Source: Tissierellia bacterium (GTDB taxonomy: Bacteria > Bacillota_A > Clostridia > Tissierellales > Peptoniphilaceae). Taken from it: a stretch of 5,767 nt of DNA. Below are positions 1 through 5,539 of the stretch, one piece after another. The stretch spans positions 1-5,767 of the forward strand of contig JAAYEN010000062.1 in assembly GCA_012728775.1 (NCBI GenBank), written 5' to 3'. The notes below the pieces were generated by a model. The model saw nothing but the letters and a program-made list of their open reading frames with translations. It had not been told where the DNA came from and made no database searches. The number at the start of each line of letters is the position of its first letter. Position 1 is the stretch's first letter. Position numbers and translations under genes: made by a program.

Positions 1-881
1 AACCATTCTTTGTTGAAAGTTCCATCTTCAATTTCTTGGTATCTTTCTTCTAAGAAAGATCTTATACTTGAAGAATCAAATTTTCCAAAGCTTCTCAATT
101 GCCCATATTGGCTAGTTCTAGAGTGAAGTGGAAGTTGTTTGAATAGTCCCATTTCTGCTGCTTTTCTCATCATTACTTCTGGTTCGTGGGACATAAACAT
201 TTCAGTTAAAACAGCTTCTGAAGGATGTCCTTTTTCAATTTCAAGTTTATATGCTTCGATAAAAATATTGTATATAATTGGCCAAATTCCTTGCTCTGCC
301 ATCAAGTCTAAATAAGTTTCATCATTAAAAGTAACTTCGATTGCACCTTGTTTTGTTGATCCTAAAGCCTTCGCAAGGGCAACTGCAATTTCTTTTGCCT
401 TACCAGTGTAGTCTTGTTCTACACTAACGAAAGTTGGGAAGCCTTCTCCAGCTTCATAAAGTTCTCTAACCCCTTCTCCAATCATTCTAGGAGCAACCAT
501 AATTATATCTAGATTTTCAGCTGGAACTATGTTTTTGAAAGTAATATTGTATGCTGAAGAGAAGTTAATTGCTGCACCTTCTTTTAGATTTGGCTCAAAA
601 ACCTCTTCATAAATATCTGAAGCTACTTCATCAGGAATAAGCATAAATATGATATCAGACATTTTAATTGCTTCGTCCATGGGATAAACTTTAAAGCCAT
701 CTTCTTCTGCTTGATGATAGGATGCGTCTCTAATGCTACCTACGATTACATTTTCAATTCCACTATCTCTTAGATTAAGAGCTTGACTTCTTCCTTGATT
801 TCCATAGCCTATAATTGAAATTACCTTATCCTTTAGTATCTCAATGTCAGCATCGTTGTCATAATAAATTTTAGTTTCCAT
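1..881 (-). CDS. Divergent ketol-acid reductoisomerase (KARI)-like protein, 3' end cut by window edge
   Basis: Reading leftward from ATG 879-881, 293 codons are open and no stop appears before the window edge; normal class I KARIs have about 330-340 residues. Seen: the KARI-type start (YYDNDADIEIL), the Rossmann motif GYGNQGRSQALNLRDSG (25-41), the cofactor loop after VG (47-48), about one residue shorter than usual, then the knotted domain with D192 and E196 (DLMAEQ), E227/E233 and S254 (SRTSQYG). KARI normally makes dihydroxy acids from acetohydroxy acids with Mg2+ and NAD(P)H. Odd: the catalytic His of the HGFN motif (E. coli His132) is Ser109, and the Lys of APKGPG (Lys155) is Arg132 in APRMIG. 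The second-domain glutamates are spaced six apart instead of four. It is the third gene of the operon, 28 nt after the carrier, with RBS AAGGAG. Family membership is secure; the reaction is not. Reduction of a 2-oxoacid made by the upstream lyase is inference. Confidence 0.85.
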   Translation of the reverse strand, partial: METKIYYDNDADIEILKDKVISIIGYGNQGRSQALNLRDSGIENVIVGSIRDASYHQAEEDGFKVYPMDEAIKMSDIIFMLIPDEVASDIYEEVFEPNLKEGAAINFSSAYNITFKNIVPAENLDIIMVAPRMIGEGVRELYEAGEGFPTFVSVEQDYTGKAKEIAVALAKALGSTKQGAIEVTFNDETYLDLMAEQGIWPIIYNIFIEAYKLEIEKGHPSEAVLTEMFMSHEPEVMMRKAAEMGLFKQLPLHSRTSQYGQLRSFGKFDSSSIRSFLEERYQEIEDGTFNKEW

Positions 882-909: not shown

Positions 910-2289
910 CTACTCTAATTCAACTGCATCTTCATCTGCATATTGATCAATACCTTGTTTTTCTTCCGGAGTCCTCATGAATCCGAAAATTATTGTAGCC
1001 ATTGTCACAGCAAATAATATATAAATGTAATAAACGTGTGGTATAATTTCTGCTGGAGATAGTCCAGTAAGCGACATACAAAGCATTACTTGTCCTCCAT
1101 GAGGAATTAAACCTTGAACCAAACATGAAAATATATCTAGTAAGCTAGCTACTCTTTTTCTTGCTATGTTATATTGTTTTGCTATGTTTAATGCTAATGG
1201 TGCAGATACAATAATTGCAATCGTATTATTAGCCAAAGCAAAGTCTAAAGCTGCTACTAATGTACCAATTCCAATCTCAGCACCTTTTCTACTTTTAATG
1301 TTCTTGGTAATATTATTAAGTAACCAGTCGATGCCACCGTAATGGCTAGCAAGCCCTGTAAGTCCTCTGACAAGTAGAGAAACTATTGAGACGCCGTACA
1401 TTCCACTCATACCTGATTGAGCAGCTTGCGCTAATGTAATAATGTCTGCATTACCATTTAATAAACCTATTATTGATGCTAATACTGTTCCTAATAATAA
1501 TACTGTTATTACGTTCATTCCTGCAATCGCAGTCACTAGTACAACTATATAAGGAATAATGTCAATAATATTATATGCGAAATCTCCTGCTATCTCCCCT
1601 GCAGATCCAGTTACACTATATATTATTACTGTAGCTAAAGCTGCTATTCCTGCAATTAGTCCATTCATTCTAAACTTATCTTTCATCTCAGCTCCAACAC
1701 CTCTGGTTGCTGCTATTGTTGTATCCGAAATTATAGATAGGTTATCACCGAACATAGCTCCGCCTAATACTGTAGCTATTGCTACTCCTACGTTTAGACC
1801 AGCTGCTTCTGCTACTCCAACTGCTATAGGTCCTATTGCTGCTATAGTCCCCATAGAAGTCCCCATTGCCGTAGCTATGAAAGCTGATATTATAAATAAT
1901 CCAGCAAAAAGAAATTTCTTTGGAACTAATGTAAGTCCTAAGTTTACAACTGATTCTACTCCTCCAGTAGCTTTAGTAACTCCTGAAAATGCTCCAGCTA
2001 AAAGGAATATAAGTATCATTAGGATTACGCCTGGTTGTCCTGCTGATTCGCAAAATAAATCAAATTTAGTGTCTAATTTATCTTTACCAATAAAGACTGA
2101 TACCATTATTGCTACTAATAGTGCTGTTTCTCTAGGTATCTTTTTAAAAGGTTCTTCTACTCCTAAAGCTGTAAATATTAGGCCTGCGCCTAAGTATAGA
2201 GCTAAAAATACTAGTAGAGGAACGAAGGCTATCGGTCCTAGATATTTATCATTGAAATCTAATGTTTCTTTTTTATTGTCTTCGCTCAT
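910..2289 (-). CDS. NhaC-family Na+/H+ antiporter-type carrier, possibly a methionine (MetT-like) or other amino-acid transporter
   Basis: This 459-residue inner-membrane protein is of normal NhaC-family length, with many hydrophobic segments between about residues 18 and 438 and charged cytoplasm-like ends. Family signatures seen: GTSMGTIAAIGPIAVGVAEA (143-162), FGDNLSIISDTTIAATRG (180-197), ALDFALANNT (347-356) and GLIPHGGQ (393-400). Members exchange Na+ with H+ or with organic solutes; comparative genomics has assigned NhaC-type proteins called MetT to methionine uptake. It is the second gene of the operon, between the lyase (31-nt gap) and the KARI-like gene (28-nt gap), which favours import of the lyase substrate or export of a product over plain pH homeostasis. 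The start at 2287-2289 is supported by AAAGGAG seven nt upstream. The family call is firm; substrate is inferred only from context. Confidence 0.88.
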   Translation of the reverse strand: MSEDNKKETLDFNDKYLGPIAFVPLLVFLALYLGAGLIFTALGVEEPFKKIPRETALLVAIMVSVFIGKDKLDTKFDLFCESAGQPGVILMILIFLLAGAFSGVTKATGGVESVVNLGLTLVPKKFLFAGLFIISAFIATAMGTSMGTIAAIGPIAVGVAEAAGLNVGVAIATVLGGAMFGDNLSIISDTTIAATRGVGAEMKDKFRMNGLIAGIAALATVIIYSVTGSAGEIAGDFAYNIIDIIPYIVVLVTAIAGMNVITVLLLGTVLASIIGLLNGNADIITLAQAAQSGMSGMYGVSIVSLLVRGLTGLASHYGGIDWLLNNITKNIKSRKGAEIGIGTLVAALDFALANNTIAIIVSAPLALNIAKQYNIARKRVASLLDIFSCLVQGLIPHGGQVMLCMSLTGLSPAEIIPHVYYIYILFAVTMATIIFGFMRTPEEKQGIDQYADEDAVELE

Positions 2290-2320: not shown

Positions 2321-3544
2321 TTAAATTTGTTTAAAACTATTTTCGAAGTCTTCAATTAGATCTTCTGCACTTTCTAATCCGACTGAAAGTCTTATTAGGC
2401 CGTCTGTTATACCTATTTTTTCTCTTTCTTCTTTTGGTACACTAGCATGTGTCATACTTGCTGGGTGTTCTACCAATGTATCAGGGTCTCCCAAACTCAC
2501 TGCAATTGATGGAATTGTAAGATTATTTACTAATTTCTTACCAGCTTCAAAAGCGCTCATACCTTTTACATCATCTTTTAATTCAAACGCAAGCATTCCT
2601 CCATACATTTCATTCATTTGAACTTTCGCTATCTCGTGTCCTGGATGGGACTCAAGGCCTGGGTAGTGTACTTTTTCAACATATTCATGTCCTTCTAAGA
2701 ATTGAGCTATTTTCATTGCGTTTTCGCAGTGTAGTTTTACTCTGATATCTAAAGTTTTCATCCCTCTTAATACTAAGTATGAATTAAATGGACTTGGAGG
2801 AGTTCCGTTTAATTTTGTTACTCCTATTCCTCTTATAATTGCAATATCTTCAGCTTTTCCTATTACAACTCCGCCTATAACGTCTCCATGTCCGTTAAGA
2901 TATTTAGTTACACTATGTACTACTATATCAGCGCCTAATGCTAGTGGAAATTGTACTGGAGGTGGTGCAAATGTAGAGTCTACAACTACTTTTATATCTC
3001 CTGCTTCATGAGCTATTTCTGCTATAGCTTTTATATCTGCAACAGCCATTGTAGGATTAGCAGGTGATTCTAAATAAACTATTTTTGTGTTTTCTTTTAT
3101 TGCTTTTCTAACATTTTCTGCATCAGTTACATCAACAAAAGATACTTCTATCCCAAAATGCTCCATGTTAGTTCTCATTAACACATCTGTTCCACCGTAT
3201 AATGTATCACTAGTTACTATATGATCTCCTGTCCTTAGTAAACCAACCATTGTCGAGCCAATTGCTCCCATCCCTGAAGCAGTCGCTACGCAATCTTCTC
3301 CGCCTTCAATGATTGCACATTTTTCTTCTAATGCTCTATTTGTTGGATTGCCGCCTCTACTATAAACAAAACCTGGAATTGATTTATCAAACTTTCCCGC
3401 TCCTTCTTCAACTGTTTCAAAACAGAAAGTCGATGTTTGATATATGGGAGTCGCCAATGCACCTGTTCCTTTATCAAATGCTTGACCACCATGAATCACT
3501 TTTGTAGAAAATCTTTTTTCTCTCCAGTTTACTTTTGTACTCAT
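2321..3544 (-). CDS. PLP-dependent Cys/Met metabolism enzyme, methionine gamma-lyase-like
   Basis: This 407-residue cytosolic enzyme has the length of the methionine gamma-lyase/cystathionine gamma-lyase family (fold type I PLP). Seen: YSRGGNPTNR (61-70, phosphate contact from the neighbouring subunit), SGMGA (90-94, PLP phosphate loop), Y116 stacking on PLP, D189 (DSTFAPP, ring nitrogen), S211 and T213, Schiff-base Lys214 in SVTKYLNGHGD, the GMKTLDIR segment (261-268), HPASMTH (360-366) and carboxylate-binding R385 (IRLSVG). GHGD and the overall match point to methionine gamma-lyase, which gives methanethiol, ammonia and 2-oxobutyrate. Against this, the Cys116-Lys240-Asp241 set typical of that enzyme is Gly118, Thr and Lys here (about 243-244), so cystathionine, homocysteine or an O-acylhomoserine remain possible substrates. 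It is first in the operon and starts at 3542-3544 behind GAGGAGG. Confidence 0.85.
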   Translation of the reverse strand: MSTKVNWREKRFSTKVIHGGQAFDKGTGALATPIYQTSTFCFETVEEGAGKFDKSIPGFVYSRGGNPTNRALEEKCAIIEGGEDCVATASGMGAIGSTMVGLLRTGDHIVTSDTLYGGTDVLMRTNMEHFGIEVSFVDVTDAENVRKAIKENTKIVYLESPANPTMAVADIKAIAEIAHEAGDIKVVVDSTFAPPPVQFPLALGADIVVHSVTKYLNGHGDVIGGVVIGKAEDIAIIRGIGVTKLNGTPPSPFNSYLVLRGMKTLDIRVKLHCENAMKIAQFLEGHEYVEKVHYPGLESHPGHEIAKVQMNEMYGGMLAFELKDDVKGMSAFEAGKKLVNNLTIPSIAVSLGDPDTLVEHPASMTHASVPKEEREKIGITDGLIRLSVGLESAEDLIEDFENSFKQI

Positions 3545-3696: not shown

Positions 3697-3723
3697 CGAA
3701 ATCGTTTTATTGCTTTTTATTAT
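3696..3723 (+). promoter_or_regulatory. Weak candidate promoter of the CdaR-type regulator
   Basis: TCGAAA (3696-3701, four of six matches to the -35 consensus), a 16-nt spacer, then TATTAT (3718-3723, five of six matches to the -10). The predicted start near 3730 leaves a leader of about 25 nt before the preferred ATG at 3755. In such AT-rich DNA this is only a candidate; its position beside the palindrome fits autoregulation. Confidence 0.3.
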
Positions 3724-3744
3724 GTTTTGTGTAACAATATATTC

Positions 3745-3750
3745 AGGTGA
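3745..3750 (+). promoter_or_regulatory. Ribosome binding site deciding the regulator start
   Basis: AGGTGA lies four nt before ATG 3755-3757. The reading frame is open further up, to TTG 3710 and ATG 3722, but those codons have no Shine-Dalgarno sequence and would add 15 or 11 residues ahead of the point where the conserved regulator domain begins. Confidence 0.6.
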
Positions 3751-3754
3751 TAAT

Positions 3755-4876
3755 ATGGATATTTCAAAAAATTTAGCACATCAAATTGTAAATAATATAA
3801 AGGGGATCATCCATCAAGATTTGAACTTTATGGACCGTCAAGGTATGATAATTGCTTCTACTAATCCTAATCGTGTAAACACATTTCATGAAGCTGCAAA
3901 AGCTTGTGTTGATAGGAAAAGGATTATTGTTATAGAATACGATAATCAATATAGAGGTTCTAAAAAAGGAATTAATATTCCAGTTGAATTTGAAAATGAT
4001 ATCATTGGAGTTATAGGTATTACTGGAAAAAGAGATGAAGTTGAACAATATGGAACCATTATCAAAAAGATGACTGAAATACTCTTAAAAGAAGAATGGA
4101 TAAAAGAAAATGAAACCCAAAAACGAGATAACTATAGAAATTTGTTGGAAGGAATTATATACGATAGATTCAAAGATGTAAATTTAATGTATTCTATCGA
4201 TGAAAACGCCTTAAAGCATATAGCCGTTTCTAAACCCTTCAAAAGTTATTTAAATACAGAACTTGTTGATAAAGTTTTAAATATTTTAGATTCTTATTTT
4301 CATAATAATAATAATAATATTTTATATTCATTTGTGTACCAAGAATTAGTTATATTATTTATGGATAACAGCAAAATATCAATCGAAAGATTCTTAAAAG
4401 CAATCATTCAAAGTACCAATGAAATTTTAAAATTAGAAATTGCATTTGGAGTATCCAGCCCTTTTTCTGACTTAAATTCATCTAATACATATTTTAATCA
4501 AGCCCTATCTTCCCATGATTGGCAAAGAAAATATGAGAAGAAGGAAGACTCAATTTTATTTTATGAAGATATGGATTTGGGAATTTTGTTAACGGATATT
4601 TCAACAAAAAATCGTATTAATTTTTCTAACAAAGTATTAAAAAATCTTTCAGAAGAAGAAATAGAATTTTATCATAATTTGCTTAATATTTATGGTAATA
4701 ATAACGGAAGCATCAAATCAATATCTGAAGAATTATTTATGCATAAAAATACTATTCAATATCGATTGAATAGACTCTACGAATTAACAGGATATAATCC
4801 TAGGGAGTATAATGGATATACCATCTTGAAACTCGCCTTTTTGTTACTTGATGATTCCGAATCACTTTCTCTTTAA
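3755..4876 (+). CDS. CdaR-family (sugar-diacid/PucR-type) transcriptional regulator
   Basis: This 373-residue cytosolic DNA-binding protein has the usual length and three-part layout of CdaR regulators. Residues about 3-135 are a diacid-recognition domain, with MDRQGMIIASTNPNR (26-40), TFHEAA (43-48) and KGINIPVEFENDIIGVIGITG (71-91), including the 'GVIGITG' signature. Residues about 140-280 are the variable linker domain, with IAFGVSSPF (229-237) followed by the family's alanine-containing helix. Residues about 304-362 are the PucR-type helix-turn-helix, with SISEELFMHKNTIQYRLNR (322-340) as recognition region. Known members (E. coli CdaR) activate genes in response to glycerate and sugar diacids. 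It is divergent from the lyase operon with 210 bp between the starts, so it probably controls that operon; its ligand here is unknown. The start at 3755 is preferred over TTG 3710 for its RBS. A run of five Asn (183-187) comes from an AAT repeat. Confidence 0.88.
   Translation: MDISKNLAHQIVNNIKGIIHQDLNFMDRQGMIIASTNPNRVNTFHEAAKACVDRKRIIVIEYDNQYRGSKKGINIPVEFENDIIGVIGITGKRDEVEQYGTIIKKMTEILLKEEWIKENETQKRDNYRNLLEGIIYDRFKDVNLMYSIDENALKHIAVSKPFKSYLNTELVDKVLNILDSYFHNNNNNILYSFVYQELVILFMDNSKISIERFLKAIIQSTNEILKLEIAFGVSSPFSDLNSSNTYFNQALSSHDWQRKYEKKEDSILFYEDMDLGILLTDISTKNRINFSNKVLKNLSEEEIEFYHNLLNIYGNNNGSIKSISEELFMHKNTIQYRLNRLYELTGYNPREYNGYTILKLAFLLLDDSESLSL
4302..4320 (+). repeat. AAT trinucleotide microsatellite inside the regulator gene
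   Basis: Five in-frame AAT codons flanked by AT at each end encode five consecutive Asn residues in the linker between the sensor and DNA-binding domains. Changes by whole units would alter linker length without a frameshift. Confidence 0.7.
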
Positions 4877-4879
4877 ATA

Positions 4880-4922
4880 AAAAGATACATTTTATCTTCT
4901 CAAACTATAAAATGTATCTTTT
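4880..4922. terminator. Hairpin between convergent genes, probable bidirectional terminator
   Basis: The arms 4880-4895 and 4907-4922 are perfect 16-nt complements with an 11-nt loop (4896-4906). The stem starts four nt after the regulator stop codon. It ends in four A/T pairs, so each transcript has a short U run at the 3' side; the minus strand continues TTTTTATTT, the plus strand does not continue in T. The stem is AT-rich and lacks a GC core, so efficiency is uncertain. It covers the last codons and the stop of the membrane-protein gene on the minus strand. Confidence 0.65.
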
Positions 4923-5539
4923 ACGCTTTCATGTTTTACTGATTTAGGCTCAAACTTCATTAAATCAAAAATCCATTGAACTATAATGCCCGTAAAGACT
5001 GCACCTAGTACAGTTGCTAATCCGAAACTTCCTCCTAATATTGCACCCATTATAACCACAACAACTTCTACTAAAGATTTTGCATGCCCCATTTTTAGAC
5101 CTGTCTTTTTCGATAAAGCTAGGTTAAATGAATCTCTAGGGCCTGATCCCAAGCCTGTTTTCATATAAAAGTAACTGGCAAACCCTAACAATACCATTCC
5201 AATTAATAAGTACAATAAACCCATAAATAAGGTGGTTTGCACTTTAAATATTCCTGAGTTCATATGTATTTGAACAAATGTGCCTACAAATAGACCATTT
5301 ACAATAGTTCCTATTCCCAAAGGTTCTCCAGAAATCATTGCAACTACCATCATTATAACTGATACTATAATGCTCATATATCCCAAACTAATTCCAGAAA
5401 TCTTACTCAAACCATCATGAAATACATTCCACGCATCCATTCCAATACCGCAAAATATTATAAAAGTAAGGGCTAATCCATATAGATATATACCAAAAAA
5501 TAAAACGATAACTCGTTTTATCAAATTATTCTTGTTCAT
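4892..5539 (-). CDS. YczE/YitT-like integral membrane protein with internal duplication
   Basis: This 215-residue protein has at least five strongly hydrophobic segments: about 8-30, 53-70, 76-92, 103-125, 153-171 and 174-194. It resembles the YczE/YyaS/YitT group of small membrane proteins, whose transported substrate, if any, is not established. The halves are clearly related: residues 31-90 and 129-188 align over 60 positions without a gap, each beginning GxG (GIGMDAWNVF, GLGSGPRDSF), passing through LSK and ending in VGTFVQ or TGIIVQ. The start at 5537-5539 is supported by GGAG five nt upstream and by a good promoter at 5584-5612. The gene converges on the CdaR-type regulator and shares its terminator hairpin. 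It lies downstream of a DauR-like regulator but has its own promoter. Function is unknown; only the family call is made. Confidence 0.8.
   Translation of the reverse strand: MNKNNLIKRVIVLFFGIYLYGLALTFIIFCGIGMDAWNVFHDGLSKISGISLGYMSIIVSVIMMVVAMISGEPLGIGTIVNGLFVGTFVQIHMNSGIFKVQTTLFMGLLYLLIGMVLLGFASYFYMKTGLGSGPRDSFNLALSKKTGLKMGHAKSLVEVVVVIMGAILGGSFGLATVLGAVFTGIIVQWIFDLMKFEPKSVKHESVKDTFYSLRR

Follow-up and report, generated by a model that had tools for sequence, protein, structure and literature searches.

A KARI-like protein with Ser and Arg at the catalytic His and Lys positions, and the variant clade in which its sequence places it

The closest described relative of the protein treated here is the 'putative KARI 2' of Sulfolobus (Saccharolobus) solfataricus (Sso-KARI), its best match both by sequence and by Foldseek at 40-41% identity. 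The structures of that protein (6jcv, 6jcz, 6jd1, 6jd2) were solved with Mg2+, NADPH or NADH, and CPD, it is called a KARI, and the title of the corresponding paper, as it stands in the reference list of PMC8615647, mentions cofactor bispecificity. Another member of the fold is BurG, the cyclopropanol synthase of malleicyprol biosynthesis, which uses NAD+ and two Mg2+, reduces hydroxypyruvate with NADH, has NAD+ bound during a reaction with loss of DMS, and forms a clade of its own in the published tree (PMC9359912). The isomerisation and the reduction carried out by KARI are separable in vitro (PMC4353338), and according to PMC2063504 hydroxypyruvate, tartronate semialdehyde and glyceraldehyde are brought to glycerate by redox steps that precede glycerate kinase.

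The stretch of Tissierellia DNA analysed here (5,767 nucleotides, hereafter the window) carries a minus-strand operon of three genes in the order PLP lyase, NhaC-type carrier and KARI-like protein (Table 1). The gaps are 31 nt between the lyase and NhaC genes and 28 nt between the NhaC gene and the KARI-like gene downstream of it, and AGGAG-type sites precede each of the three. No ilv gene was found in the window by ORF list and Pfam search, in keeping with the first-pass annotation, which had seen a repurposed KARI in a lyase operon free of ilv genes, and Pfam and NCBIfam profiles recognised no gonydiol-pathway (BurG-type) genes there. The carrier reaches 77 bits to TIGR00931 against a cut-off of 370, and the YczE-like protein 131 bits to NF052291 against a cut-off of 205; a YczE-like homologue also occurs at the edge of an Oscillibacter cluster (L011). 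A promoter scan of the window returned 18 sites compared with a shuffle mean of 15.1, which is about equal, and the same scan found no terminator.

Table 1. Features of the window, with the basis of each assignment.
Feature	Position	Strand	Basis
KARI-like protein (Ser109/Arg132 variant clade)	3..881	-	ORF; Pfam, NCBIfam, alignment, tree
Ser109 codon	555..557	-	counted from ORF start at 881; alignment with E. coli His132
Arg132 codon	486..488	-	counted from ORF start at 881; alignment with E. coli Lys155
NhaC-type Na+/H+ antiporter-family carrier	910..2289	-	profile matches
PLP enzyme, Cys/Met metabolism family; first gene of the operon	2321..3544	-	profiles, alignment
CdaR/PucR-type regulator, divergent	3710..4876	+	PF05651 Diacid_rec, PF13556 HTH_30
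YczE-like membrane protein	4892..5539	-	NF052291 match

Judged from its sequence, the window ORF has the fold and the metal ligands of a class I KARI. It starts with ATG and is cut by the window edge after 293 aa; full-length homologues have about 328 aa, the C-terminal 35 or so residues lying beyond the window. A class I length goes together with matches to both Pfam domains, KARI_N (201 bits) and KARI_C (59 bits), and with the C-terminal end missing from the query the protein scores 239.6 bits against TIGR00465 ilvC (cut-off 226) and 253 against NF004017 (cut-off 336). The first-domain metal ligands E188/D192/E196 align with E213/D217/E221 of E. coli IlvC, and the domain-2 glutamates E227 and E233 with canonical metal-binding residues, at a spacing of 6 instead of 4. 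The fold and first-domain ligands are thus kept, as the first-pass annotation had stated, and its central observation, that the catalytic His and Lys are replaced, is borne out by the alignment of Ser109 with the catalytic His132 and of Arg132 with the catalytic Lys155 of E. coli IlvC, residues which are both present in all 25 canonical class I proteins aligned.

These changes are a property of a whole group of sequences. A homologue search found 7133 proteins, and among the 120 listed ones that were examined each of the patterns NF[SA]S[GA]YN[IV] and APRM[IV]G occurs in 118, the pattern giving nothing in the other two. Given the conservation of the changed residues in 118 of these 120 homologues and in a related MAG, a simple pseudogene or a sequencing artefact was rejected. 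From a scan with one genome per species, which yielded 475 relatives, the best 80 loci were kept, and an alignment was made of 95 variant rows (L109 and L110 being further copies of genes already in the set) and 25 canonical class I proteins, of which 18 come from genomes also carrying the variant. All variant rows have Arg in the Lys155 column, Ser at position 231 and Gln at position 249 (Met in 23 of the 25 canonical rows). The shifted spacing of the domain-2 glutamates reported in the first pass likewise holds for the group, being 6 in 95 of 95 variant rows as opposed to 4 in 24 canonical rows and 5 in the remaining one, which implies a two-residue insertion. Ser fills the His column in 84 variant rows, beside 9 with His and 2 with Thr, a share that is biased upward because the peptide patterns used for scanning came from the family itself. 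Three more positions are constant in all variant rows save one: Asn at 28 (Ser in 24/25 canonical rows), Tyr at 111 (Phe in 23/25) and Pro at 201 (Gly in 25/25). Arg for Lys in APRM.G, the two-residue insertion between the domain-2 glutamates and, with few exceptions, Ser/His/Thr-[GA]-Tyr-Asn form a signature that separates the variant clade from canonical KARI in the aligned set.

For 117 rows, 92 of them variant and 25 canonical, a quick maximum-likelihood tree calculated with columns 109 and 132 removed puts variant and canonical rows on opposite sides of a branch with an SH-aLRT of 99 (no bootstrap); L108, L002 and Sso-KARI have long branches. The first of these (G043 contig C105) is a very divergent His/Lys KARI with an end branch of 4.05, from a Chloroflexi genome that also has a variant copy. 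Seven rows in the tree keep the His, three close to the base of the variant part and four among halophilic archaea, and this placement suggests that the Lys-to-Arg change preceded His-to-Ser. By alignment and tree, the window protein is a member of a large Arg-type (mostly Ser/Arg) KARI variant clade that includes Sso-KARI. The variant has an Asp in the cofactor loop, which by the loop rules of PMC5940873 may mean a preference for NADH; the same Asp is found in Sso-KARI, whose paper has cofactor bispecificity in its title. Two wide searches, of 249 and of 296 genomes, each gave two genomes with a match of at least 57% identity (G001, G027, G010, G021), the remaining matches lying at 34-45%. 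A literature search, with most subscription journals outside its reach, returned no paper describing the variant clade and nothing linking it to glycerate kinase, GntP or the lyase.

Whether the variant has a branched-chain pathway to serve can be asked of the genomes that carry it. The closest genome is a Tissierellia MAG (G001) with a contig of 86.5% nucleotide identity to the window over 3950 bases, a close relative of the window's organism and probably another species; like G027, the isolate Murdochiella massiliensis SIT12, it may be incomplete. A KARI scores over the cut-off in all 50 genomes searched. A higher-scoring KARI accompanies the variant in 42 of them (18 of these other copies were read, all with His and Lys), and the variant is alone in eight (G001, G010, G014, G027, G044, G046, G047, G049). 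For DHAD there was no match in three of the 50 (G001, G014, G027), and in the 22 genomes searched for AHAS there was no match in G001, G010 and G027, a mere trace in G049 and one protein over the cut-off in G014. A second, canonical ilvC, which the first-pass annotation had thought worth seeking, was not found in the closest genome, nor were ilvD and AHAS, and the three are likewise not found in Murdochiella massiliensis, so that no branched-chain pathway is seen there for the variant to serve. The window's branch probably does not make valine.

In the Asgard archaea the variant is the only KARI found in all 13 genomes examined, which were chosen because they carry it (loci L067, L069, L070 and ten others, with Ser/Thr-Arg KARI only), and DHAD is over the cut-off in 11 of the 13; these genomes may depend on the variant KARI. 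AHAS-like proteins in the same genomes score under the cut-off. As a separate observation, one cluster of an uncultured archaeon (L080, about 10001-15300 of G060 contig C7) combines AHAS and a canonical KARI with a Lys-to-Arg variant in which the His is retained.

The first-pass annotation had taken the residue changes to make isomerisation doubtful, and here we depart from it. Because Sso-KARI has the same signature in a structure with CPD, and because the variant is the only KARI found in the 13 Asgard genomes, Ser and Arg alone are no proof that isomerisation has been lost, and it is the genome evidence that carries the case.

The first gene of the operon has diverged as well. The lyase is nearest to methionine gamma-lyase (MGL) and remains under the curated MGL cut-offs, with 500 bits to TIGR01328 against 549.7. 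In an alignment to MGL structures, Gly occupies the position of the active-site Cys116 of MGL, and Thr-Lys that of the active-site pair Lys240-Asp241. By active-site residues as well as by cut-offs it falls outside methionine gamma-lyase, and with YGGT present in 119 of 120 listed homologues its sequence features set it apart as a subfamily of its own, marked by YGGT[NSD] and, in the rows inspected, by Thr-Lys. Across the 50 genomes, the nine best matches to the lyase (62-100% identity) occur one per genome and beside the variant KARI, on the same contig in six cases and, for G603, G604 and G605, as deduced from the lyases in L024, L025 and L017; weaker copies, at 61% identity or less, are located elsewhere.

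The gene neighbourhoods were compared over 84 loci, 83 of them with the variant (L003 is canonical) and several on short contigs. The first-pass annotation had proposed checking whether the homologues form a clade linked to the lyase and NhaC genes. The first half of this stands, the homologues making up one side of the branch described above; the second does not, as only 10 of the 84 loci have the lyase (at least 60% identity) and 9 have the NhaC gene, and a clade defined by the lyase-NhaC link was rejected on these grounds. More widespread, counted by tblastn with representatives from L012, are a GntR/FCD-type regulator within 3 kb of the KARI (25/84) and a GntP-type permease (16/84), with both in 13 loci and often as the two genes flanking the variant. 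A glycerate kinase directly adjoins the variant in three loci and from two families, class I in L040 and L025 (the latter over the TIGR00045 cut-off) and MOFRL in L041. In L002 one is found at a distance of 4.3 kb, and the majority of the 84 loci have none nearby. By chance 0.06-0.12 glycerate kinases would be expected as direct neighbours among 149 slots, an estimate that assumes 1-2 kinases per 2500 genes and concerns a kinase family picked after the data were seen. Across the 50 genomes the class I kinase is found in 32 and MOFRL in 27; G001 shows neither of these two families, the ones sought, which speaks against glycerate as the product in the window itself.

The arrangement of these genes varies. 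In Murdochiella the order is CdaR type, glycerate kinase, KARI and GntP, and in L040 glycerate kinase, KARI, NhaC, lyase and CdaR type; a CdaR-type regulator occurs in the window, L040 and L041. In Oscillospiraceae (L011, L017, L023, L024, L025) racemase-like (alanine/serine), NhaC, lyase, GD_AH dehydratase, LarA and GntR genes lie opposite GntR-KARI, the families being assigned from one scanned representative of each. Sulfolactate metabolism was considered for the loci with GD_AH and LarA and dropped, the dehydratase having matched only galactarate dehydratase among NCBIfam and PDB sequences. The variant of L035 is found among sugar-acid genes that include MR_MLE and ILVD_EDD dehydratases, and in L006, L009, L010 and L031 the variant comes after the genes for a glycyl-radical enzyme and its activase, and is followed in L010 and L009 by a molybdopterin oxidoreductase (the L009 copy cut by the contig end). 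The glycyl-radical enzyme of L010 has 790 aa and scores below the curated cut-offs reported for it. Since other loci have different or uninformative neighbours, the clade need not share one substrate. Taken together, GntR, GntP, glycerate kinases, CdaR-type regulators and the lyase with NhaC point to hydroxy-acid or 2-oxo-acid catabolism.

We suggest, with moderate confidence, that the window protein is KARI-derived and has left branched-chain synthesis in this branch to act as a catabolic Mg2+/NAD(P)-dependent oxidoreductase of small 2-oxo or 2-hydroxy (often 2,3-dihydroxy) acids. This is the best reading because the metal ligands are kept, the KARI half-reactions are separable, BurG provides a precedent and the redox route of PMC2063504 supplies a fitting reaction. 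The ilv genes not found in G001 and Murdochiella, the higher-scoring second KARI in 42 of 50 genomes and the catabolic neighbourhoods also favour it. Against it speak Sso-KARI with the same residues, the Asgard genomes, the archaeal L080 cluster with AHAS, and the many loci that have no glycerate kinase close by. For the reaction, its direction, substrate, cofactor and transport we infer the following: the PLP lyase would convert an amino acid to a 2-oxo acid, which the KARI-like enzyme would reduce to a 2-hydroxy acid on the retained two-Mg2+ site, with the NhaC-type carrier exchanging substrate or product. In other members of the clade a glycerate kinase or a sugar-acid dehydratase may take over the product, which would make glycerate-type acids the leading substrate class, with glycerate formed from hydroxypyruvate or from tartronate semialdehyde. 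As a tentative possibility, the same reading can be narrowed: lyase-derived 2-oxobutyrate would be reduced to 2-hydroxybutyrate, which would leave the cell through the NhaC-type carrier, the whole acting as an electron sink with no glycerate link in this branch. The lyase-NhaC-KARI operon with its 28-31 nt gaps, the adjacency of the subfamily's nine best lyase matches to KARI and the finding of neither tested glycerate kinase family in G001 are all in its favour, whereas several other clade neighbourhoods point to dihydroxy acids; methionine would be a doubtful source of the 2-oxobutyrate, because the lyase lacks the MGL cysteine and Lys-Asp pair.

Two explanations lie outside the proposed oxidoreductase. 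That the protein is an authentic KARI working with Ser and Arg, its pathway missed in incomplete genomes or split, we consider rather unlikely: Sso-KARI, with SGYN and APRMVG and its Mg2+, NAD(P)H and CPD structures, and the Asgard genomes with the variant alone and mostly with DHAD argue for it, but G001 and G027, where no DHAD or AHAS was found, show nothing that would supply the substrate or use the product, a higher-scoring KARI stands beside the variant in most genomes searched, and the window is devoid of ilv genes. Also rather unlikely is a redox-neutral enzyme with tightly bound NAD+ (an epimerase, an isomerase or a BurG-like elimination) that would take a hydroxy-acid substrate through a hidden oxidation-reduction cycle. 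BurG (PMC9359912) shows the KARI fold to be capable of such chemistry, and the 13 loci with both GntR and GntP near the KARI would suit it; however, a plain reductase would serve glycerate kinase equally well, and several clusters already have a LarA-type racemase. A bolder reading, which we regard as doubtful, would make the clade a second major class of KARI-fold enzyme, commonly annotated ilvC and occurring in lineages as distant as Asgard archaea and gut Firmicutes. It would be a catabolic reductoisomerase acting on tartronate semialdehyde or hydroxypyruvate, or on related aldonic acids, that changed Lys to Arg first and then His to Ser, and that is paired here with a remodelled PLP lyase. 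Tartronate semialdehyde is the hydrogen analogue of acetolactate, and hydroxypyruvate that of the 2-oxo acid to which acetolactate rearranges.

The variant genes often bear the name ilvC, and all but a few exceed the TIGR00465 cut-off; metabolic models could in this way assign a valine-synthesis step to organisms such as Murdochiella, in which its partner genes were not found. The Asgard genomes examined, with Ser/Thr-Arg KARI only, also raise the question of whether the KARI alkyl shift needs His and Lys. The finding is broader than a single-protein oddity, concerning a known fold with a solved member, Sso-KARI, that has the same residues.

Compared with class I IlvC (TIGR00465, PF07991 + PF01450), the window protein differs by His to Ser and Lys to Arg, by an M[IVLG]G-type motif after the Arg, by the two-residue insertion in domain 2, by Pro for the canonical Gly at 201 and by having no ilv neighbours in the window. 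D-apionate oxidoisomerase may also be a relative; a literature search gave nothing on it. Known hydroxypyruvate and tartronate-semialdehyde reductases, which belong to other families and are not known to include a KARI, would catalyse the proposed reaction beside glycerate kinase. BurG has been recruited away from branched-chain synthesis; it differs in its sulfonium chemistry and has 31-32% identity to the model of a full-length homologue that is 98% identical to the window protein (P0001). Sso-KARI shares SGYN, APRMVG and the 6-residue glutamate spacing.
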